A stretch of 34,760 nucleotides of DNA from a virus. The notes under the pieces were generated by a model. It was not told the DNA's origin, searched no databases, and saw only the letters and a list, made by a program, of their open reading frames with translations. The position numbers and the translations under genes are program-made. This document shows, one piece after another, positions 3,779 to 34,505 of the stretch; positions within the stretch are counted from its first letter, which is position 1, and each line of letters starts with the position of its first letter. The DNA lies in IMG/VR virus record IMGVR_UViG_3300030385_000697, positions 1 to 34,760 of that record. One strand, given 5' to 3'.

Positions 3779-3786
3779 CAAATATA
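3779..3786 (-). promoter_or_regulatory. Possible -7 element (TATATTTG)
   Basis: Minus-strand match to TAnnTTTG, 5 nt before the ATG at 3774. The expected -33 TTTG is not present at the usual distance. Confidence 0.3.
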
Positions 3787-6915: not shown

Positions 6916-6947
6916 CAAAGATACGAAAAATATCCGAGACTACCAAA
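6916..6947 (-). promoter_or_regulatory. Consensus Bacteroidota promoter
   Basis: Minus strand: TTTG at 6947-6944, a 20-nt spacer, then TATCTTTG at 6923-6916. This is the known Bacteroidota primary-sigma pattern (TTTG, about 19-20 nt, TAnnTTTG). Transcription should start near 6910 and read the metallopeptidase and replication genes, leaving a leader of about 50 nt. Confidence 0.85.
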
Positions 6948-7427: not shown

Positions 7428-7691
7428 TTAGAATGGTACATCTGAATTATCTGATGATGTAGATTTAGATTCTTCAGTGTCTTTTTTAGGAGCTTCATAA
7501 GTGTTCTCAAAAGCGTAATGAGTAGCTCCTTTTTCTGATGGGGTTTTTCTTTCAGCTATTGTAATCTGCACCCATCCATTTTTAGCTATCTTTTGTAAGT
7601 CATCTAACTTAAGATTAGCGTTTATTAAACTTCCGTACTGAGTAGTAAATTCTTTAATACTACTAGCTATGTAATTCTTTTCTTCTGCCAT
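7428..7691 (-). CDS. Small protein with SSB-like C-terminal tip
   Basis: 87 residues: an N-terminal domain (1-68), a Ser/Glu-rich linker, and the end SDNSDVPF. That end copies the acidic Asp-x-Pro-Phe tip through which bacterial SSB recruits replication and repair partners. The N-terminal part (NLKLDDLQKIAKNGWVQITI, then GATHYAFENTY) is beta-rich but shorter than a standard OB-fold SSB. I infer a phage single-strand-DNA-binding protein. Overlap with the preceding gene is 29 nt. A 105-nt gap with no gene follows. Confidence 0.6.
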   Translation of the reverse strand: MAEEKNYIASSIKEFTTQYGSLINANLKLDDLQKIAKNGWVQITIAERKTPSEKGATHYAFENTYEAPKKDTEESKSTSSDNSDVPF

Positions 7692-8088
7692 TTTGTAATT
7701 GTTTAATTGTTATTAATTTATCTAGTTGTTTGTTAATTAAAATTATTTTTTCTTTTATATCTTCAACCTGTTCTTCCACAGAGTCTTTCATTAAATCTAA
7801 TTGAAAGCATATATCTTTGTATGGTAATATAGTAAGTTTAGGATAAGGAATACTGTAGTCATCAAATGTTTTGCACGAATGTAATACAGTTGCGTGAGTG
7901 TGAAATGTAATTTTACCTATCTTTTCAAAGCTGTATTTAAAATAATTTCTCATAACATAAAAAAACAATCTTCTTGCATCTAGAATATCTCTTTTTCTTA
8001 CTTTACTTCTAATTTGTTTCTCACTTATACCCATTTCCTTATGTATGTAATCAAATACAAATCCTATTTTTTTTCTATCGCTTTCCAT
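7663..8088 (-). CDS. DnaA domain IV-only protein
   Basis: 141 residues. Residues 20-78 follow the DnaA DNA-binding domain: a basic loop (KVRKRDILDARRLFFYVMRN), a helix-turn-helix (YSFEKIGKI), and HTHATVLHSCKTF, which corresponds to the signature helix that reads the DnaA box (HSTVLHA in DnaA). The AAA+ ATPase of DnaA is absent. Residues 90-135 look like a coiled coil. I infer an origin- or operator-binding protein made in the replication block. It starts 2 nt after the HTH gene. Confidence 0.8.
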   Translation of the reverse strand: MESDRKKIGFVFDYIHKEMGISEKQIRSKVRKRDILDARRLFFYVMRNYFKYSFEKIGKITFHTHATVLHSCKTFDDYSIPYPKLTILPYKDICFQLDLMKDSVEEQVEDIKEKIILINKQLDKLITIKQLQNGRRKELHS

Positions 8089-8090
8089 AA

Positions 8091-8402
8091 TTACCTTCTA
8101 TTAGTTGGTAAAGCTCTTGCCATATCATAATCTTCTTCCCCACTAACTACTATGTTATGTATATTAGGGACATCAACTTCTATGATATCTATTATATCTC
8201 TAACATCTATATCTAGAAAGGTAGCTAATCTAGCCATGTGAAAGTATCTTAAATAAAAAGGGTTATCAATATATTTTTCTATTGTACTTCCCTTAACATT
8301 TATTATTTTACCAAATCTTACTTTGGATATACCTCTAATTCTAAGTATTGCTTCTAACTCATTTTTTGAGTTTCTTATTTTATCATAATTATTCTTTGCC
8401 AT
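8091..8402 (-). CDS. Cro/C1-like helix-turn-helix protein
   Basis: 103 residues. Residues 15-75 read like a five-helix Cro/C1 (XRE) DNA-binding domain: LRIRGISKVRFGKIINV, then STIEKYIDNPFYLRYFHMAR, then LATFLDIDVRDII. The C-terminus has no peptidase or dimerisation domain that I know. It is a candidate for binding the dyads over the two early promoters, since it is itself transcribed from one of them. That would be autoregulation and is inference. Its ATG has the typical A-rich leader. Confidence 0.7.
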   Translation of the reverse strand: MAKNNYDKIRNSKNELEAILRIRGISKVRFGKIINVKGSTIEKYIDNPFYLRYFHMARLATFLDIDVRDIIDIIEVDVPNIHNIVVSGEEDYDMARALPTNRR

Positions 8403-8654: not shown

Positions 8655-9193
8655 TAGTCAACAATTTCATCTTGACCGAACACTCCTTGCTCATAGAATC
8701 CAGCAATCTTTAATACAACTCTACTCATTGCTCTTTTCTCTGCCATAGCAACAGGGAATTTCTTACCTCCTCCCATTAAGTTACATTGGTCTCCACTAGC
8801 ATTAGACTCTCCAAACGACATCATGTTTCTAGCTTCTCCATTAACAGTCATAGAAGCAACAGCTTTTAATACACAATATCCTTTCTCAATATCCATACTT
8901 ATAACTTCATAAGCTACAGTTATCTTTTGTTTAGATACAATCTTATCAATTCCTGTTCTAGTTATAATTACAAATCCTCTTTTGTCTTTGTAAATATCTT
9001 CTTCGGTTAAACCGTTTTCAATATAAAGCCTTCTTAAAGCTTCTTTCTTGGTTTCAATTTTTACCTCAGTGTTGTTTTCAACTTTTTTCATTTTAGTTTT
9101 AGTTAAGTTATTACTCATTTTATAATTATTTTGGTTAATATTCTCTTGTTCTTTCTCTAGCATTGCCATAAATTCTTCTTTCATTCTACCCAT
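8654..9193 (-). CDS. Rad52-like single-strand annealing protein candidate
   Basis: 179 residues. The strongest clue is GGGKKFPVAMAEKRAMSRVV (141-160), then LKIAGFYEQGVFGQDE. This resembles the Rad52-superfamily segment in which an AEKRA..R..L helix is followed by a G-y-SE/DE end, as found in DdrA/ERF-type phage recombinases. The central beta region (70-125) fits the fold. The first 45 residues are a polar extension with further possible ATG starts (residues 4, 26 and 35). With two nucleases and an SSB-like protein nearby, a role in recombination or end repair is plausible. Confidence 0.6.
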   Translation of the reverse strand: MGRMKEEFMAMLEKEQENINQNNYKMSNNLTKTKMKKVENNTEVKIETKKEALRRLYIENGLTEEDIYKDKRGFVIITRTGIDKIVSKQKITVAYEVISMDIEKGYCVLKAVASMTVNGEARNMMSFGESNASGDQCNLMGGGKKFPVAMAEKRAMSRVVLKIAGFYEQGVFGQDEIVD

Positions 9194-9473
9194 ATCTGTA
9201 TGTTTTTTTATTGAAATTATGTTCTCTACAATATGAGTCTAGTGCTGTTTCTGAATGGTCTTTACATTGATAACATAAATTCATGTCTGTATCTATAGTT
9301 GCATCACAACAATAACTTACTGTGTCCAATTCATCAAATTCATCACTACATTCCGAACAGACATCCATATCATCCATCTTGTCGTTCATTCCGCAGTTCT
9401 TACATTGTGGGGTATCATCTTGGTAATTTCTTGGGTCATCATACTGACCTCCTGTAATAATAGTTTTAATCAT
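9186..9473 (-). CDS. Cysteine-rich zinc-ribbon protein (95 aa)
   Basis: 95 acidic residues with CKNC (24-27) and CSEC (39-42) forming one likely ribbon. CC (54-55) and CYQC (67-70) form a second site with a nearby His and Cys. It is the first gene after the promoter at 9522-9553. Phage early zinc-ribbon proteins often act on host RNA polymerase or nucleic acid, but this is only a family-level expectation. The stop overlaps the next ATG by 8 nt. Confidence 0.65.
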   Translation of the reverse strand: MIKTIITGGQYDDPRNYQDDTPQCKNCGMNDKMDDMDVCSECSDEFDELDTVSYCCDATIDTDMNLCYQCKDHSETALDSYCREHNFNKKTYRYG

Positions 9474-9521
9474 AGTTAGTTTTTTTAGGTTAATATTCTA
9501 TTTATTGTTTTAAATCTTTTA

Positions 9522-9553
9522 CAAAGATACGAATAATAAATGGAACTTCCAAA
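9522..9553 (-). promoter_or_regulatory. Consensus Bacteroidota promoter
   Basis: Minus strand: TTTG at 9553-9550, a 20-nt spacer, then TATCTTTG at 9529-9522. The -7 octamer and spacer length are the same as in the promoter at 6916-6947. ACAAAGATACGAA is shared by both. It should drive 9473 down to 6966. Confidence 0.85.
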
Positions 9554-9565
9554 ATAATTTGGACT
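9545..9565. promoter_or_regulatory. Dyad over the -33 element
   Basis: Perfect arms TCCAAA and TTTGGA (9548-9563) around ATAA, enclosing the -33 TTTG. The 21 nt align with 6939-6959, pointing to one shared regulator. Confidence 0.55.
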
Positions 9566-9696
9566 TTTTTTTTAATTTTCTTTGTGTCTCTACTATATTA
9601 TACGAGATATTTTAGTAAAAGGTTACAATTTTTTTACCCTTTCTTTGTCTTTATCTTTAGCTTTATCTTATTCTTATTCTTGTTCTTTATCTTTAA

Positions 9697-9734
9697 GGGT
9701 ATAGATACCCTATAGATACCCTATAGATACCCTT
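9697..9734 (-). repeat. Three tandem 11-mers with a closing inverted arm
   Basis: Plus-strand TATAGATACCC occurs three times exactly (9700-9710, 9711-9721, 9722-9732), preceded by GGG at 9697. On the minus strand, three successive GGGTAT arms can each pair with the single downstream ATACCC, giving alternative hairpins just after the phosphoesterase stop. It could act as a terminator or a protein-binding array. Confidence 0.55.
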
Positions 9735-9737
9735 TAA

Positions 9738-10829
9738 TTAAAAATAATGTGTAATTCTTGCAACCTGTCCGTTAAACCTCTCATGTAAAAAACCTTCAAC
9801 AGCTTTAGGAATACCTGTAAACCCCTTTCTACTATGCCAACTATCTGTTCCGCTGGGACTTCTTAAATATTCAATAGTAACTCCAATATAATCTTTAGCA
9901 TCTAAATATTTATGTTTAACCTTATGATGTAAATGATGTAAATACCAATACCTAAATTTAGTTTCAGACCAATATTTTGGTTTTTCATTAGCCATTAATA
10001 ATGGTAATTTATCCATTTTAGCTCCATCTCCATGCTCTAATCCAATTAAACTATTACCATACTTATAATATTTTCTATGAGAAACCTCAGCATCAACAGT
10101 AACATCATCACATTTTCTAAACCAACTCTTAAGTGCATGAGCTAAATGAAAACCACTTTGATAATCATGGTTGCTCATTGAATGCACACAATCTACAGGA
10201 GCTACCTCCCTTAAAATCTCCACACATTGCACATATAAAGCTAAAGCAATTTCAAAATGTTCCCACCATTTTCCATCTGTATCTTGATGAGTTCCTTTTG
10301 TAGTTGTATTGTAAACATTATCTATATGCAAAATATCGTTGCCTATACAAAATAATATCCTATCTATATTAAACCCCTCAACCTTCCATAGTATTCCATT
10401 AATACCCTCTATAACTCTTGCTACAGCTATATCTATATTATAACCATCTTTAGTTTCTGAATCATTAGAATATTTACCTATATGTATATCAGCTGGGTTG
10501 ATTATTAACAGATGTTGGTTAGCATCTTTAGGATTTCTTTTTATTTTTTTGTAGTATGGAGAATGATTTTCAATTAATTCTTTTATTTTGGGTAAAATAA
10601 TTTCTCTATCATCAATATTTTCTTTTGTTACAATAGAGAATCTTAATTCTCCTGAAGCTGATTGCCAATGTTTTACACTAACAACATCATTTTTATCTAT
10701 TCCCCTCTGATTTAAGTGTAGTTCTAAAGCTGTATTCCCATTTATATTATCAACAGTTTCAGCTCTATTTTGATAAACTAATTCTTCTTCCTCTTTAGTT
10801 AATCTTAATCTTCTTCCGTATTCTTTCAT
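9738..10829 (-). CDS. Calcineurin-like metallophosphoesterase
   Basis: 363 residues. Metal-binding motifs appear in family order: ADIH (Asp114, His116), GND (163-165), NHD (220-222), HGD (266-268), and a histidine cluster HHLHH (298-302). The first 100 residues are a charged extension (RRLRLTKEEEELVYQNRAE) that may bind DNA. Phage members of this family are thought to act as nucleases or DNA phosphoesterases related to SbcD/Mre11, though the substrate here is unknown. It lies alone between a strong terminator and the early block, with a -7-like element only 10 nt before its ATG. Confidence 0.8.
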   Translation of the reverse strand: MKEYGRRLRLTKEEEELVYQNRAETVDNINGNTALELHLNQRGIDKNDVVSVKHWQSASGELRFSIVTKENIDDREIILPKIKELIENHSPYYKKIKRNPKDANQHLLIINPADIHIGKYSNDSETKDGYNIDIAVARVIEGINGILWKVEGFNIDRILFCIGNDILHIDNVYNTTTKGTHQDTDGKWWEHFEIALALYVQCVEILREVAPVDCVHSMSNHDYQSGFHLAHALKSWFRKCDDVTVDAEVSHRKYYKYGNSLIGLEHGDGAKMDKLPLLMANEKPKYWSETKFRYWYLHHLHHKVKHKYLDAKDYIGVTIEYLRSPSGTDSWHSRKGFTGIPKAVEGFLHERFNGQVARITHYF

Positions 10830-18683: not shown

Positions 18684-19697
18684 TTAATTAGTTATTTTAG
18701 AAGCTAGCGCATTAAAAAATGCTGTTTCATTACTTACTTCTTCTTTTTCTTCTACTACAGATGGGTCTGATTCTGTTTTAATTTCAGTTCCCTTTGCGAT
18801 AGACTTACTTGTTAATCTCTCTACCTCTTTGTTAAGTGAATCTACAGTATTTTGTAATTCTGTAATTTCTTCATCTTTAACAATAGATAAAGCATTAACT
18901 TCTTCTACTTTAGATTCAAATTCAGAAAGTTTATTAGAAATTTCTTCATTATCAGCTAAAATAACATTTACTTCTGGTACATCAGTTGAGTTAACATCGC
19001 CCTTAACTGCAGCAACAATTTCTTCAACTTTTCTACCAAACCATGATTTTAATTCTTCTGTCATTGTTTTACTTTTTTTATTATTATTTAATTGATTTAC
19101 GATTTCCTTTTGAGTTTTATTTTTGAATTTAGTAATGTCGTATTTAGCTGCTACCATAACAGCGTCTGATACAGTATCAATAAATCTATATTCTAAAGCT
19201 TCTTCTGAATTGAACCAAGTTTCCTCATCCATCATATCTTGAATCTCTACTAATGGTAATCCTGTTTTCTTTGTATATATATTAGCTATCTCAGAACTTA
19301 ACTTATCTAGCAGGGTAGCTGTTTTTCTCATATCACTAGCCTCTCCCATTGCTCCACCCCAAGCATTATGTATCATATATAAAGAATTTTCTGACATAAT
19401 AATCTCATCAGCGGCTAAGGGAATAATGCTACCCATACTTGCTGCTATTCCTTCTATATAAGCTGTAACCTTACCTTTATATTTTTTAAGTGTGTTGTAT
19501 ATAGCCATACCATCAAACACTTCTCCACCAACACAATTAATATGTAGGTAAATATCTTTACCTTTTAATAATTTTAAATCATTAACAAAATCTTTAGCTG
19601 ATATACCATAGCTTCCAACCTCATCATATAAATAAACATCAGCATACTGCTCTGTGTCTTTTGCGTTTATTGAATACCAACTCTGCTTATTATTCAT
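18684..19697 (-). CDS. ClpP-type prohead protease fused to scaffold
   Basis: 337 residues. Residues 15-185 are an S14/ClpP-like protease: INCVGGEVFDG (53-63), nucleophile Ser87 in GIAASMGS, His110 in MIHNAW, and the third-residue region EETWFNSEEALEY (158-170). Residues about 210-337 are an acidic coiled coil (LSEFESKVEEV, then ELQNTVDSLNKEVERL), the usual internal scaffold that is removed during maturation. It would assemble inside the prohead and cleave itself and perhaps the capsid protein. The ATG lies 5 nt beyond the -7 element of the late promoter, so the message may be leaderless. Confidence 0.85.
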   Translation of the reverse strand: MNNKQSWYSINAKDTEQYADVYLYDEVGSYGISAKDFVNDLKLLKGKDIYLHINCVGGEVFDGMAIYNTLKKYKGKVTAYIEGIAASMGSIIPLAADEIIMSENSLYMIHNAWGGAMGEASDMRKTATLLDKLSSEIANIYTKKTGLPLVEIQDMMDEETWFNSEEALEYRFIDTVSDAVMVAAKYDITKFKNKTQKEIVNQLNNNKKSKTMTEELKSWFGRKVEEIVAAVKGDVNSTDVPEVNVILADNEEISNKLSEFESKVEEVNALSIVKDEEITELQNTVDSLNKEVERLTSKSIAKGTEIKTESDPSVVEEKEEVSNETAFFNALASKITN

Positions 19698-19701
19698 TTT
19701 A

Positions 19702-19746
19702 CAAAAATAATTTTAATTAATATTTTATTTACGAAAAAAATGGAAA
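19702..19746 (-). promoter_or_regulatory. Late promoter, copy 2 (head module)
   Basis: Minus strand: TTTCCATTTTTTTCGT (19746-19731), 21 nt, then TATTTTTG (19709-19702). The 16-mer, the octamer and the spacing are identical to 33003-33047, while the spacers differ. The canonical -33 TTTG is missing, which suggests a phage-modified or activator-dependent promoter. Confidence 0.75.
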
Positions 19747-19752
19747 AAAGAT

Positions 19753-20076
19753 TTACCCACGAACATTTCGTTTTAACACTGACTTATCTCTCTCCTTATA
19801 AACTATGTTCTGAGCTGTTCGTTCAGTTATATCATATTTTATTGATAAATCTATAAAACTATTAGTCCTGTTACCATCATTAGTAACAAGTAAACTATCA
19901 AAATCTTGAATTACCATATAATTCCTTAGCCTCTTTGGCTCTATCATACCCCTCTCAATTAAATGAGCTAGCATATCTTTTATTTGAGGTTCTTCCCCAA
20001 ACCTTACTCTTAATTCAGTATATAGTAAATCAATATACTCTGTTATTATATCTACCTTATTTTCTCTTTGAGCCAT
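19753..20076 (-). CDS. Helix-turn-helix protein, candidate late regulator
   Basis: 107 residues. The C-terminal part, with FIDLSIKYDITERTAQNIVY (about 74-93) and then KERDK, is a helix-turn-helix like that in Mor/sigma-type regulators: an acidic helix, a turn at YDIT, and a recognition helix ERTAQNIVYK. The N-terminal part is helical (IITEYIDLLYTELRVRFGEE). The gene ends 7 bp before the late-promoter block at 19731-19746. It may control the late promoters, but a structural or packaging role cannot be excluded. Confidence 0.6.
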   Translation of the reverse strand: MAQRENKVDIITEYIDLLYTELRVRFGEEPQIKDMLAHLIERGMIEPKRLRNYMVIQDFDSLLVTNDGNRTNSFIDLSIKYDITERTAQNIVYKERDKSVLKRNVRG

Positions 20077-20560: not shown

Positions 20561-23500
20561 TTAAAAAGCTGCTTGTGATTCAATTGCACTTACTGTATTT
20601 TGTGATTGAGTTATATCCGCTTCTACCACAACTACTTTATTTCTCTGACTTATAGCTCCTTTTAATCCCTGCTGTCCCGCCACATCAAATTGTGTTTGTG
20701 CAAATGAAGGGATATTTGTTATACCACCATCAGCAAAACTAACTCCACCACCCGCATAATTCATAGCTGATAATTGACTTCTAAACATAGCTGTGCTTCT
20801 TTTATTTATAACAGCTTCTCCACCTTCTAATTCTACAACTCTACCACCTACAGCAAACATTTCTCCCCCCTGAGAATGAGAATTTCCATACACAATACCT
20901 CCATCAGCATATCCAGAAATCTCTCCAACTGTAGTATGTTGACCTCCAAAAGTCATTAAAGCCATCATTGATGAATTTGTTGATGAGTCAAGGCCTCCAC
21001 CACCACCACCACCACCACCACTAGCTGGAGTGCTACCTCCCGCAGCACTTGCTCCATAATCTCCACCGAAAAGGTTTTTAATACTAGCTATAACCCCAAT
21101 TATAGCCAATATTGTTCCCGCCATAGCAATTAGGTTGTAAGGAAATATAAGCCCTGACTGTCTTGTAACTCCCGCAGCAGCGTTTGTACCAGCTTTAAAT
21201 AGATTAGCAAATCCAGCAGCCATTGTGGTAGCTATACCTCCAGCTTCTTGTATTTGAGATTGTAAAGCGTACATAGCTTTCTTTTTATCTGACAAAGCAC
21301 TTAATTCTTTTTGTAAAGTAAATATAGATTCTGCTAAGGCAGCCGCTCTAGTAATTGCTATACCAACTTTTCTCAACCCTTGTAATTTTTCCTCATCTCC
21401 AGCCATTTCTTCTATCAATCCTCCCATCTCTCCAAATTTACTGATAGTAGCATCTCTCTCATCCGCTAACATCTTATAAGCTTCAGAAGTATTAATTATT
21501 TGCTGATTCTCTAAATCTGTTATATCTTTATTAGCCTTATCATAAAGGTCTATCTTTTTCTGCAACCATTCTCCTGTAATACCATTTAATAGAGCTTGAT
21601 AAGTCCATTCATCAATGAGCCCTTGATTTCTCTGCTCTTCTAATTTAGCTTTTTCTGTAGCGTAAGCGTCATCCATCACCTTCTCCTTCTTCCTAAATTT
21701 TTCTTTATCAAGCTTAATCTCTATATCTTTTCTCTTAGCTTGAGCGCTTATTACATCTTTATTATGTTTCCTATCTTTTTCATCATATTGAGCTATAAAA
21801 GTATCTATAGCTGCTAATTGACCTTCTAGTAATTTTTCTGTGTAATCTTCCTCTCCTATAACAACACCCTCATAAATAGCTTTAGATATCTCCTCATCAA
21901 GCATTGCTGACTGCACAATCTCTTTAGCTTTAGTCATAAAAGTCTGTAAAGTATGTATAGCGTCTGTTTCTTCTGGGTCATCATCTTCCTTCTCATCTAT
22001 ACCATAATCTCCAGCTAATAACTCCTCTAATGAAGTTTGACTTGTGGACTCTATAATTGTCTTTAATATCTCTCTTTGTCTCTCTAGGTATTTTGTTGAA
22101 GCTGTACCTCTGCCTGCAACTGGCAATCCATCCTTAAACTCATCCGTAAAAGACCTGCCTGGAGATGGGCCATAATCCTGTAGATAAGACATATAATCTA
22201 CTTTAGCAGAAACTAGGCCTGGGTCTAGAATTTCTATAAATGTAGCAAATGTCATCTCATATTTGTCTAATAATTTAGATAATCCAATAACACCTACATT
22301 TGTATCTTTCTCTAAGCTTGCTTTCTGTTTTGAAATCATTGCTTCAGGGGTTCCACGACCAAATAGCCCAGCAATCCAATCTTCCTGTTCGTGCACATAA
22401 GTAGGCATTCTTAAATCTTGACTTCCCTGTTTAGCTGTTAGAACATATTTAGCAATAATTTTCTTCCAAGCCGCTCTTTCCGCCAGATGAGGTTGCCACT
22501 CAGCCATTTCATCTATAAATGGCTGAAGCTCCTTTCTAATAGTCTTAGCTGTAACTATCTCTCTTACCGCTTCTCTCTCCATTTCCATATATATATCAGC
22601 CATAGCTTTATCTTGCATTAGTTTCATTAGCTCAGTTGTCTCCCTCTTTATATCTTTTATAGTATCTCTTTCATCTAAGAGAGTCTGCCCATATTCTTTT
22701 CTAACAATATTGATGTCTTTAAGAGCTCTTTTTTCCTTTGCCTTCGCATCTTTATATTCTAGTGTAGCAACAGCTGACTTATCAATTAGTTCGCCTTCGG
22801 TATCTGTTAGTCTATTTAAGGTTGTTTTAGCGTCAATAAGATTAAGTAAACTTTGATTTACTAACTCTATTTCAACATTAGCGTCAACCATTCTCTCATC
22901 TATCTGTTCTTGCAAGCTAATAAACTCGTATGATGCATCATTTACACCCATCATACCAGCTACCCATTCCCCTAAAGCAATTACTAAAAGACCTATACCT
23001 GTAGAAACTATAGCAAGCTTTAATGTTCTAAGAGCTCCTGAAACAAGAGCTGTAGCTCCCGCTAATCCAGTCATCGCTAAACCTGAACCTGTAGCTGTCG
23101 CACCCATAGCGGCTATAGCTACTTTAGCTGGTTTTAACCCTATAACTAAAGCAACTATAAATCTAGTAGCTGTTTTTACCTGTAACCATAACCTTCTTAC
23201 TTTATCATCACTATCAACAATAGCATTTAACCACTTAGCAAATTTTTCTAAAACTCTAGATAGGCTTTTACCAAAATTTTTCACAAGAGCTATTGATAGT
23301 CCCTGAAAAGCTGATTTAACCTTAAATATACTTCCTTGTAAAGTATCTCCAACTGTATCAGCCATTCTTTGCCCAGCTCCATCAGCATTCTCTAATTCCT
23401 CAACCAAAGCTTTTATATCATCCGCTCCGCTCAACATTGTACCAAAAGCAGCTACCTGTCTAACATCCATAAATGTTAAAACATTAGCTAGATTAACTCC

Positions 23501-24445
23501 CTCATCTTGCATATCCTTAAATACTTGTAACATACTATCTAAACTACTTATAGTATGACCTACCCTTCTAGTTAATTCAGATGTAGGGTCTTGCATTTTT
23601 AAGAATATATTTCTTAAAGATGTACCAGCAATAGAAGCTTCAATACCTGTATCAGATAATTTAGCCATAATAGCTGTTGTTTCCTCAATACTAAATCCAG
23701 CCATTGCAGCAATTGGAGCAACTTTAGTCATAGATGTTTGCCATTTTTCAATATCTAAAGCGGAACTTGTAAATGCTACAGCCATAACATCTACCACTCT
23801 ACCAGCTTCACTAGCGTCTAACTGAAAACCTCTAATAGCATTACCAGCAACAGTAGCCGCTCTCGCTAAATCACTTCCTGTAGCTATAGATAGATTAATA
23901 GTAGCTTTAGTAGCGGCTAATATTTCATCAGTTGTAAATCCTAATTTAGATAAGTTTAACTGTAAGTTAGCTACTTCTGAAGCAGTAAAGAATGTTGAAC
24001 GACCTAATTCTTGAGCTGAATTAGATAGTTTTCTAAATTCCTCTGCGTTAGCCCCACTAACAGCTTTTACCTTAGCCATAGTAAATTCAAACTCAGTAAA
24101 TGTTCCAATCATTGTAGTTAAAGCTTGACTAACTCTCCTAAAGGCAGTTACTAATATAGAGAAAGCAGCAGCTCCCTGTATAACCCCCATAGTCATTGAC
24201 TTTTGAAGTTTATTTGATTTTCTACTCTCTTGGTTAGCACCAGACATTGCTTTCTTTAACTCTCTAAGCTCTTTTGCTTGAAATTTAATAGATTTAGATG
24301 TCTTTCCGTAAGCATCAGCATCTCCTTTACTTTGCTTAGCATTGTCTCTTTGCTGTTTTCTTAATTTCTTAAGACTGTCCTCAAGTTCTTTTATTCTACG
24401 AACTCCCTCAACTTTTACATTTATTATCTTATTTATCTTTGCCAT
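20561..24445 (-). CDS. Tape measure protein
   Basis: 1294 residues, the longest gene. The N-terminus is coiled coil (1-80). The family core lies at about 110-390: FEFTMAKVKAVSGANAEEF, then GFSIEETTAIMAKLSDTGIE, then ASIAGTSLRNIFLKMQDPT. Hydrophobic segments at about 425-500 may enter the host membrane for DNA passage. A run of nine glycines occurs near residue 1145 (plus-strand CCA/ACC repeats around 20996-21022), followed by a Gly-rich end. By the usual rule of about 1.5 angstrom per residue the tail would be near 190 nm, so a long-tailed siphovirus is expected. Confidence 0.9.
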   Translation of the reverse strand: MAKINKIINVKVEGVRRIKELEDSLKKLRKQQRDNAKQSKGDADAYGKTSKSIKFQAKELRELKKAMSGANQESRKSNKLQKSMTMGVIQGAAAFSILVTAFRRVSQALTTMIGTFTEFEFTMAKVKAVSGANAEEFRKLSNSAQELGRSTFFTASEVANLQLNLSKLGFTTDEILAATKATINLSIATGSDLARAATVAGNAIRGFQLDASEAGRVVDVMAVAFTSSALDIEKWQTSMTKVAPIAAMAGFSIEETTAIMAKLSDTGIEASIAGTSLRNIFLKMQDPTSELTRRVGHTISSLDSMLQVFKDMQDEGVNLANVLTFMDVRQVAAFGTMLSGADDIKALVEELENADGAGQRMADTVGDTLQGSIFKVKSAFQGLSIALVKNFGKSLSRVLEKFAKWLNAIVDSDDKVRRLWLQVKTATRFIVALVIGLKPAKVAIAAMGATATGSGLAMTGLAGATALVSGALRTLKLAIVSTGIGLLVIALGEWVAGMMGVNDASYEFISLQEQIDERMVDANVEIELVNQSLLNLIDAKTTLNRLTDTEGELIDKSAVATLEYKDAKAKEKRALKDINIVRKEYGQTLLDERDTIKDIKRETTELMKLMQDKAMADIYMEMEREAVREIVTAKTIRKELQPFIDEMAEWQPHLAERAAWKKIIAKYVLTAKQGSQDLRMPTYVHEQEDWIAGLFGRGTPEAMISKQKASLEKDTNVGVIGLSKLLDKYEMTFATFIEILDPGLVSAKVDYMSYLQDYGPSPGRSFTDEFKDGLPVAGRGTASTKYLERQREILKTIIESTSQTSLEELLAGDYGIDEKEDDDPEETDAIHTLQTFMTKAKEIVQSAMLDEEISKAIYEGVVIGEEDYTEKLLEGQLAAIDTFIAQYDEKDRKHNKDVISAQAKRKDIEIKLDKEKFRKKEKVMDDAYATEKAKLEEQRNQGLIDEWTYQALLNGITGEWLQKKIDLYDKANKDITDLENQQIINTSEAYKMLADERDATISKFGEMGGLIEEMAGDEEKLQGLRKVGIAITRAAALAESIFTLQKELSALSDKKKAMYALQSQIQEAGGIATTMAAGFANLFKAGTNAAAGVTRQSGLIFPYNLIAMAGTILAIIGVIASIKNLFGGDYGASAAGGSTPASGGGGGGGGGLDSSTNSSMMALMTFGGQHTTVGEISGYADGGIVYGNSHSQGGEMFAVGGRVVELEGGEAVINKRSTAMFRSQLSAMNYAGGGVSFADGGITNIPSFAQTQFDVAGQQGLKGAISQRNKVVVVEADITQSQNTVSAIESQAAF

Positions 24446-33002: not shown

Positions 33003-33047
33003 CAAAAATACTCTATTAAATAATACAACCCACGAAAAAAATGGAAA
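33003..33047 (-). promoter_or_regulatory. Late promoter, copy 1 (tail module)
   Basis: Minus strand: TTTCCATTTTTTTCGT (33047-33032), 21 nt, then TATTTTTG (33010-33003). It lies directly beyond the terminase stop and reads the tail module. See 19702-19746 for the matching copy. Confidence 0.75.
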
Positions 33048-34505
33048 TCAAGAAAAGTAAACTATTTTCCCTGTATTAGACCATATTTCTCTATTCACAG
33101 CCATCACAAGACAATCTACCATATCATCATGCCTACCTGATGGGAATTTTACACATTGTTGTATAAATAATTCGTTCCAATCCCCCTTCAACAAACTTAC
33201 TCTTTCTGACTCTAAACTTGCACTTATATCTTGTACTCTAGCTACTTTATCTTTAGTTGGAGGTTTATCTTCCCTTACATTTAAACCTGTTTCTCTTTTT
33301 AATGTCTGAACTATTGACTGACCTGACGCTTTTGGCTCAACATATATTCTGCTGCTATTTGTATATCCATTCATCTGCACCCATTGAGGTATAAATCTTA
33401 TTAAATCAGGAAAATCTTTATGCACATTTACACAATTTATAATCTGCCATTTATTATCTAAATAAATATAAGCTAATAATGCTGAGGGGTCGTTCTTCTG
33501 ATTTTCTGTATATGCTGGGTCTATTATAAAATTCACTGTTACTCCATTATTTTTTTTGGAATACTCATCTATTTTAAACCAACTTGCTTTTATCAATCCT
33601 GAATTAAGGGGAGTTGGAGTTTGCATTAATTGTCCCGCATATCCATAAGTACCCAACGCTTCTTTATAATCTTGTAAAATAGCTCTACTAAATCTATCAG
33701 TCCAAAATAAATTATCTTCATCATAGTATTCTCTTAAAGAAGCTGGTTTTACATCATCTGATAATTCTGCTGGAATACAAATATGTTTATATTTTAATCT
33801 TGTGTTTATACCACCTACTAAATATCCACTTAAATCGTTTTCATGGATTCTTTGCATAATAATTATACGAACTCCTGTTAAGGGATTATTTAATCTTGAA
33901 TAAAATGTTGTTCTGTACCATTCATTAGCATTTTCTCTTTCAACTTCAGACGCAGCGTTCTTAGGAGATACAGGGTCATCAATAATTAAGAAATCTGCTC
34001 CCTGTCCTGTAATAGTACCACCAACAGATGTAGCTCTTCTCATTCCCATATAATTATTCTCGTATCTAGCTTTTAAGTTTTGGTCTTTCTTAATATGAAA
34101 TACATCTCCCCATCTTTCTCTATACCAATCACTCTGAATAACATCTCTACTTTTAGTTGCATGTTCTATAGACAGGTCAGCAGAATAAGAAGCTGTAATG
34201 AATCTAAGCTTAGGGTCATTTATCCAACACCAAACAGGAAATAATACTGTAACGATTAAAGATTTAGTTGAACGGAAAGGAACATTAACAATAATGTCTT
34301 TCTTTTTTGGTTTCCCCGCAGTTATTCTTTCAGCTTCTTCTTGTAATAAATTACATAGATATTTATGATGCCAATTAGTTGATAGGGGAACAGCGGGCTC
34401 TACAATATGCCAAGACCTCTTAAAAAATTCATAAAAAGACATCTCACATAATTTTTGCTCAATAGCAAACTTTATAATGTCATCATTATTCTTTGTTGTA
34501 CTCAT
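33048..34505 (-). CDS. terL: Terminase large subunit
   Basis: 485 residues. ATPase part: Walker A-like VPFRSTKS (75-82), Walker B FLIIDDP (172-178), and the motor segment IIIMQRIHENDL (214-225). Nuclease part (RNase H-like): Asp329 in FIIDPAYTENQKND, Glu390 in VEPKASG, and Asp460-Asp461 in HDDMVD. All acids needed for cleavage appear present. It cuts and pumps concatemeric DNA into the prohead. Its start overlaps the small subunit gene by 20 nt. Unlike most siphophages, it is followed by tail genes, not by portal. Confidence 0.92.
   Translation of the reverse strand: MSTTKNNDDIIKFAIEQKLCEMSFYEFFKRSWHIVEPAVPLSTNWHHKYLCNLLQEEAERITAGKPKKKDIIVNVPFRSTKSLIVTVLFPVWCWINDPKLRFITASYSADLSIEHATKSRDVIQSDWYRERWGDVFHIKKDQNLKARYENNYMGMRRATSVGGTITGQGADFLIIDDPVSPKNAASEVERENANEWYRTTFYSRLNNPLTGVRIIIMQRIHENDLSGYLVGGINTRLKYKHICIPAELSDDVKPASLREYYDEDNLFWTDRFSRAILQDYKEALGTYGYAGQLMQTPTPLNSGLIKASWFKIDEYSKKNNGVTVNFIIDPAYTENQKNDPSALLAYIYLDNKWQIINCVNVHKDFPDLIRFIPQWVQMNGYTNSSRIYVEPKASGQSIVQTLKRETGLNVREDKPPTKDKVARVQDISASLESERVSLLKGDWNELFIQQCVKFPSGRHDDMVDCLVMAVNREIWSNTGKIVYFS

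Follow-up and report, generated by a model that had tools for sequence, protein, structure and literature searches.

A conserved pair of predicted late promoters with a putative phage-specific activator site in a lineage of uncultured phages

Comparison of a phage genome fragment with its uncultured relatives gives good support to a conserved pair of predicted late promoters, each carrying a putative phage-specific activator site. The window, which is the whole stretch analyzed, corresponds to a single IMG/VR record (34,760 bases, 32% G + C), and its annotated genes are all located on the minus strand. The pattern TTTCCATTTTTTTCGT-N21-TATTTTTG occurs in two exact copies, at 19702-19746 (P1) and 33003-33047 (P2), and nowhere else in the window. 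Both 45-bp sites have the minus-strand orientation of the genes, and a control search with the pattern written backwards gave no occurrence. The duplicated element reported by the first-pass annotation was confirmed in full, as the 16-mer, the 8-mer, and the 21-nt spacing are exact in both copies and no other copy is present. The arrangement of P1 and P2 very probably represents a switch for the particle-building genes that is read by a phage protein. The elements of the two sites and the genes flanking them are as follows:

19731-19746, minus strand: P1 upstream block TTTCCATTTTTTTCGT, proposed activator site (approximately -49 to -34), conserved at the same register across 77 distinct P1 sequences
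19702-19709, minus strand: P1 -7 element TATTTTTG; predicted RNA start at approximately 19697, the A of the protease ATG
33032-33047, minus strand: P2 upstream block, the same 16-mer as in P1; clades A, B, and C all have a counterpart of P2
33003-33010, minus strand: P2 -7 element TATTTTTG; predicted RNA start at approximately 32998, leader of approximately 14 nt
18684-19697, minus strand: head maturation protease, first gene after P1 (phrog_94, E value 5e-78)
19753-20076, minus strand: helix-turn-helix (HTH) protein of 107 aa, best activator candidate, adjoining P1 in 87 distinct loci, with Arg86 in its predicted recognition helix
32577-32984, minus strand: 135-aa protein, first gene after P2, with a weak PHROG match and homologues after TerL in relatives
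33048-34505, minus strand: large terminase (TerL), whose stop codon abuts the P2 block (phrog_38, E value 9e-99)

P1 lies between the genes of the HTH protein and the head maturation protease, and P2 lies between those of the large terminase and the 135-aa protein, with the tail genes coming next and the tape measure protein among them (20561-24445). The genes from P2 through the HTH protein form one run, directly after which P1 is located. The contig begins within a replication gene and stops just short of the start of the small terminase (TerS). Its relatives are circular permutations with the same one-directional gene order and with extra DNA between the replication gene and TerS.

Only one pair of repeated 16-mers in the window is accompanied by an exact 8-mer at equal spacing, and no such pair was found in 30 Markov shuffles, which preserve first-order base transitions only. 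When up to three mismatches were allowed, the 16-mer was found at three more places in the window, each with three mismatches. The shared -7 block is longer than first described, extending to TATTTTTGTAAAA, and upstream conservation in the relatives begins earlier (TTTTTTCC) and extends to CGTAA. The identity of the two blocks over 16 bases is exact in the window as claimed, but it is partly luck, as P2 in the relatives varies after TTCC (TTCCT, TTCCC).

IMG/VR was scanned with the full pattern and, separately, with the 16-mer alone, the latter being the less biased test. The full 24-base pattern was found in 20 further IMG/VR stretches with drifting spacers; the search for the pair elsewhere, which had been proposed as a check, thus led in every case to a position ahead of a homologue of the protease or of the 32577 protein. 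Among the 16-mer copies read from the second scan, 22 of 81 had TANNTTTG exactly 21 nt downstream and one had it at 41 nt, and no other distance within 50 nt was observed. This retention of a single spacing makes a chance motif unlikely. The copies lacking TANNTTTG appeared coding-like, as an overall impression rather than from a copy-by-copy reading. In a looser viral scan, the matches listed were mostly coding-like repeats with other spacings, and those among them located soon before a protease start all had a spacing of 21.

Protease homologues were collected down to approximately 55% identity, and the DNA ahead of their start codons was compared. Three uncultured phage clades had P1 with its register conserved. 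Its block reads TTTTTTCCATTTTTTTCGTAA in clade A (the window and G001-G006), mostly TTTTTTCCACAAATTAGGTAG in clade B (G007-G010, G017, and G018), and mostly TTTTTTCCAAAAACTKCGTAA, with a variable left half, in clade C (G011-G016). Located between TerL and the 32577 homologue, counterparts of P2 were identified in each of these clades; the -7 element is weaker in clade C. The block sequence drifts by clade, and its register to the -7 element is held. When sites were scored with clade-specific matrices from which the scored genome had been left out, P1 and P2 gave the top two scores in all nine genomes scanned (27-45 vs. shuffle maxima of 15 or less).

The spacers of the two sites are unrelated, yet the blocks and their spacing are retained in three clades, in agreement with the earlier claim that selection acts on both blocks. 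Repeated 16-mers are in excess in the window (119 pairs vs. approximately 7 in shuffles), so some repeats are expected, and P1 and P2 might on that ground be attributed to chance, to a recent duplication, or to a non-promoter signal such as a terminator or packaging site. Such an origin is extremely improbable given the conservation across clades and the strong spacing test; moreover, the genes flanking P1 and P2 are unrelated, and therefore no duplicated segment is present. On these sequence comparisons, the pairing of the 16-mer with the -7 element is not due to chance.

Croceibacter phage P2559Y and Cellulophaga phage phi17:1, named phages among the best TerL matches, contain no site of the P1/P2 type, and an Rfam search returned no match. 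The first-pass annotation named no earlier description of the motif, and no published account of it was found in the papers searched.

The -7 element TATTTTTG fits the Bacteroidota consensus TAHHTTTG at both sites, as first annotated. P1 and P2 resemble Bacteroidota housekeeping promoters in this exact -7 element and in the usual AT-rich spacer, whereas the -33 TTTG of those promoters is replaced by a conserved block running upstream from that position. The hosts are probably Bacteroidota because of the -7 element and because phages of Croceibacter, Chryseobacterium, and Cellulophaga are among the best TerL matches. In Flavobacterium johnsoniae, probable transcription starts lie 4 or 5 nt past the -7 element (PMC6847099), which places the predicted starts at approximately 19697 for P1 and 32998 for P2. 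The P1 -7 element ends 4 nt ahead of the protease ATG in the window. Of 77 distinct P1 sequences, 74 have a gap of 4-6 nt here, so the protease mRNA is predicted to have no leader or almost none. Such an mRNA would be an unusual case, given that 87% of the predicted leaders in F. johnsoniae are longer than 10 nt. Further -7 elements were observed approximately 3-4 nt ahead of an ATG at 3779-3786 (minus strand), before the clade C homologues of the 9738 gene, and before the TerS operon of clade B, so that a lack of leaders may be common among the mRNAs of these phages.

The replacement of the -33 TTTG that had been pointed out is real, as CGTA or CGTG occupies this position at P1 and P2, but the absence of TTTG alone is weak evidence because F. 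johnsoniae promoters barely show a -33 motif and have more conspicuous A/T-rich motifs at -18 and -28 (PMC6847099). The main argument is the conserved block. The same F. johnsoniae data and the T-rich upstream tracts would suit a block that serves as an UP-like polymerase contact for the host RNA polymerase, with no phage activator involved. We regard this as quite unlikely: C and G are among the conserved positions of the block (TTCC, CGT) even though the genome is AT-rich, the block changes by clade together with a residue of the HTH protein, and it is found at two places per genome. It is also absent from the early promoters of the phage, which counts against an UP-like element. Two promoters of the early type were identified:

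9522-9553, minus strand: early-type promoter with canonical -33 TTTG, TTTGGAAGTTCCATTTATTATTCGTATCTTTG, with counterparts in clade A
6916-6947, minus strand: early-type promoter with canonical -33 TTTG, TTTGGTAGTCTCGGATATTTTTCGTATCTTTG, with counterparts in clades A and C

These two promoters have TTTGG at -33 and TTCGTATCTTTG at -7 in common, and inverted repeats (CCAAATTATTTTGG; CTACTAAATAATTTGGTAG) lie across their -33 elements, as for a repressor operator. Among the other non-coding stretches, 1879-2568 contains several GAAACTGTC-like repeats, which are perhaps iterons of a replication origin, and the intergenic region 9474-9737, between the genes at 9738-10829 and 9186-9473, contains tandem copies of GGGTATCTATA.

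The first-pass annotation had allowed for a sigma-like factor as well as an activator. Two blocks at a fixed spacing do resemble a sigma promoter, and a phage sigma factor or polymerase-modifying protein could read the entire 45-bp unit. The -7 block, however, is the host's own consensus TAHHTTTG, and Pfam and PHROG scans of the window proteins, which covered part of the small ones, detected no sigma or RNA polymerase domain. The sigma-like factor was accordingly dropped from the interpretation, and a phage reader of this kind is considered very improbable.

A phage activator acting on the block is the preferred reading, and the probable reader of the block, on the available sequence evidence, is the 107-aa HTH protein encoded at 19753-20076. 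This candidate, already pointed to by the first-pass annotation, is strengthened by its conserved position beside P1 and by a coupling between one of its residues and one P1 base. In 87 distinct loci the HTH gene immediately precedes P1, and the gene turned up in no other context. An AlphaFold2 model of the protein, computed with 38 homologues, was confident and all-helical (pLDDT 86.6), with residues 85-95 forming the last long helix. Residue 86, the second position of the predicted recognition helix, partitions perfectly with one P1 base over 86 loci, Arg going with C and Ser with G or T. Arg86 was found in 49 of 49 loci with CGT or CGC in P1, and Ser86 in 37 of 37 loci with GGT or, in three cases, TGT. 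The P2 base agrees with the coupling, being C in clades A and C and T in clade B. Columns that separate the two groups are few (2 of 75 in the HTH protein and 2 of 329 in the protease), indicating that the coupling does more than distinguish two deep clades. On the best protease tree, residue 86 and the P1 base change together twice, but the well-supported branches require just one of these changes. Shared descent may therefore account for the coupling, which was noticed post hoc and not predicted beforehand.

The weak point of assigning the block to the HTH protein is the placement of its gene within the late operon. The gene has no clear promoter of its own, and the first molecules would therefore need read-through, a weak site, or basal P2 activity. 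Two proteins of the early region could read the same late promoters instead:

8091-8402, minus strand: Cro/C1-type HTH protein, rival reader (HTH_26 matched by 11 of 14 homologues, sub-threshold for the window protein), with homologues in three clades
7663-8088, minus strand: stand-alone DnaA domain IV protein, rival reader (PF08299, E value 1.6e-15)

Both are kept in the three clades where the early region is covered, the DnaA domain IV protein in 16 of 19 records, the remaining three being fragments of 23-25 kb, and their early timing would suit a late switch better. The DnaA box is TTWTNCACA. The clade B P1 block includes TTTTCCACA, which fits this box, but neither clade A, to which the window belongs, nor clade C retains the fit. 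The window has TTTTCCATT at P1 and ATTTCCATT at P2; only part of the relatives have a DnaA box in the activator block. In one clade A relative (G002), the DnaA domain protein has diverged, yet both blocks are identical to those of the window. This protein is 56% identical in G002, and many of its neighbours are approximately 80-90% identical. A DnaA box was rejected as the activator site of the window on account of the block misfit and the unchanged blocks beside the diverged protein. Stand-alone DnaA domain IV proteins are known from phages, and the phages studied here encode one; part of the clade B block fits a DnaA box, and the block of the window does not. The 8091 protein shows no profile similarity to the Mor/C family, although none is needed for a reader role. 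Since the coupling of residue 86 favors the protein adjacent to P1 over both early proteins, we consider an early regulator an unlikely reader.

Searches against 50,697 phage records gave no match to either the HTH protein or the 8091 protein. In host genomes, the one contig match to the HTH protein was set aside, since this short frame overlaps a large opposite-strand gene.

The layout of P1 and P2 recalls the middle and late promoters of phage Mu. The binding site of the Mor dimer in Mu is a 16-bp element (-51 to -36) in place of the -35 element (PMC4390567; PMC4287176); the block of P1 and P2 is also 16 bp long and lies at nearly the same place, approximately -49 to -34. In both cases a -10-type element is recognizable and the -35 or -33 element is missing, as judged for P1 and P2 by sequence and with a predicted start. 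The Mu mor and C genes lie directly before promoters that they activate, and the HTH gene likewise lies directly before P1. Mu differs in host phylum and sigma factor, and in the phages studied here the candidate activator gene is inside the late operon.

Similarity of the proteins themselves was weak. The site of a Mor-type dimer should contain a dyad, and no significant dyad symmetry was found in the P1/P2 block (best z 2.4-2.6 among 30 centres). A GG-x-Y-x-P stretch that lies ahead of the HTH and is near-invariant in 14 Mor/C proteins is absent from the 38 HTH homologues. The window protein had no match to Pfam Mor (PF08765) at E values up to 1, and 7 of 38 homologues matched below the curated cut-off (best E value, 0.032). 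The 'late transcriptional activator' family phrog_836 was matched by 36 of 38 homologues (best E value, 0.008) and by the window protein at an E value of 0.24, but the same search also gave matches in all 14 control genomes, so the signal reflects HTH rather than Mor. Alignment of the HTH family with the 14 Mor/C proteins by hhalign gave an E value of 0.0013 with a probability of 18%. In a Foldseek search with the HTH model, Mor (1rr7) was the top PDB row (E value, 2.7; prob 0.16), and VIA-align of the model against Mor and C gave Z scores of 4.8-4.9 over 44-47 residues, tied with unrelated HTH proteins. A PDB sequence search with the HTH profile returned nothing useful. The arrangement is Mor/C-like in position and layout, and the HTH protein is weakly so in sequence and fold; it would act in the manner of Mor/C but was not filed as a Mor/C member.

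A third copy of the block was found on the opposite strand between the replication gene and TerS in five clade C genomes (G011, G012, G013, G015, and G016). It is followed approximately 21 nt downstream by TACCTTTG (TACCTTTA in two of the five) and then by a conserved stretch with GTTGCTCATATCGCAAC; in G011, the site lies at coordinate ~14344 of the oriented record, on the minus strand. In three clade A genomes (G002-G004), a block is present at a similar place with a poor -7 element. The corresponding region is missing from the window because the contig ends there. No gene lies directly downstream on the strand of the third site in G011 and G013, the two clade C genomes examined. The third site perhaps gives rise to a small RNA made late, or it belongs to a packaging site. 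The conserved stretch after it lies around GTTGCTCATATCGCAACTAGCATATTT, and the same 17-mer GTTGCTCATATCGCAAC is present in clade B genomes G007 and G018 (minus strand of the oriented record), with no obvious promoter block ahead.

Overall, P1 and P2 would be the late promoters of this uncultured phage lineage. The host RNA polymerase would read the -7 element TATTTTTG, and a phage activator occupying the block (approximately -49 to -34) would replace the -33 contact and recruit the polymerase. This activator would most likely be the 107-aa HTH protein (19753-20076), whose gene closes the P2 operon and precedes P1, so that the protein may boost its own operon by positive feedback and turn on the head genes, with P1 giving rise to a leaderless or nearly leaderless protease mRNA. 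We favor this proposal as a whole with moderate confidence.

At somewhat less than even confidence, the HTH protein may further represent a new family of late activators outside current libraries, with a small regulon in Bacteroidota phages that consists of P1, P2, and sometimes a third, antisense promoter. One Arg/Ser switch in the recognition helix would set the operator base, and the position of the gene in its own operon would make the late switch autocatalytic, with a leaderless capsid-protease mRNA. In the papers searched, no late promoter or activator has been described for phages of this group, whose likely hosts are marine Bacteroidota with an unusual sigma factor and promoter. If the proposal is true, it would provide a defined operator, a candidate for its activator, and a specificity switch at one residue; late operons of uncultured phages could be marked by a DNA signature, and Bacteroidota genetics would gain a switchable promoter part.
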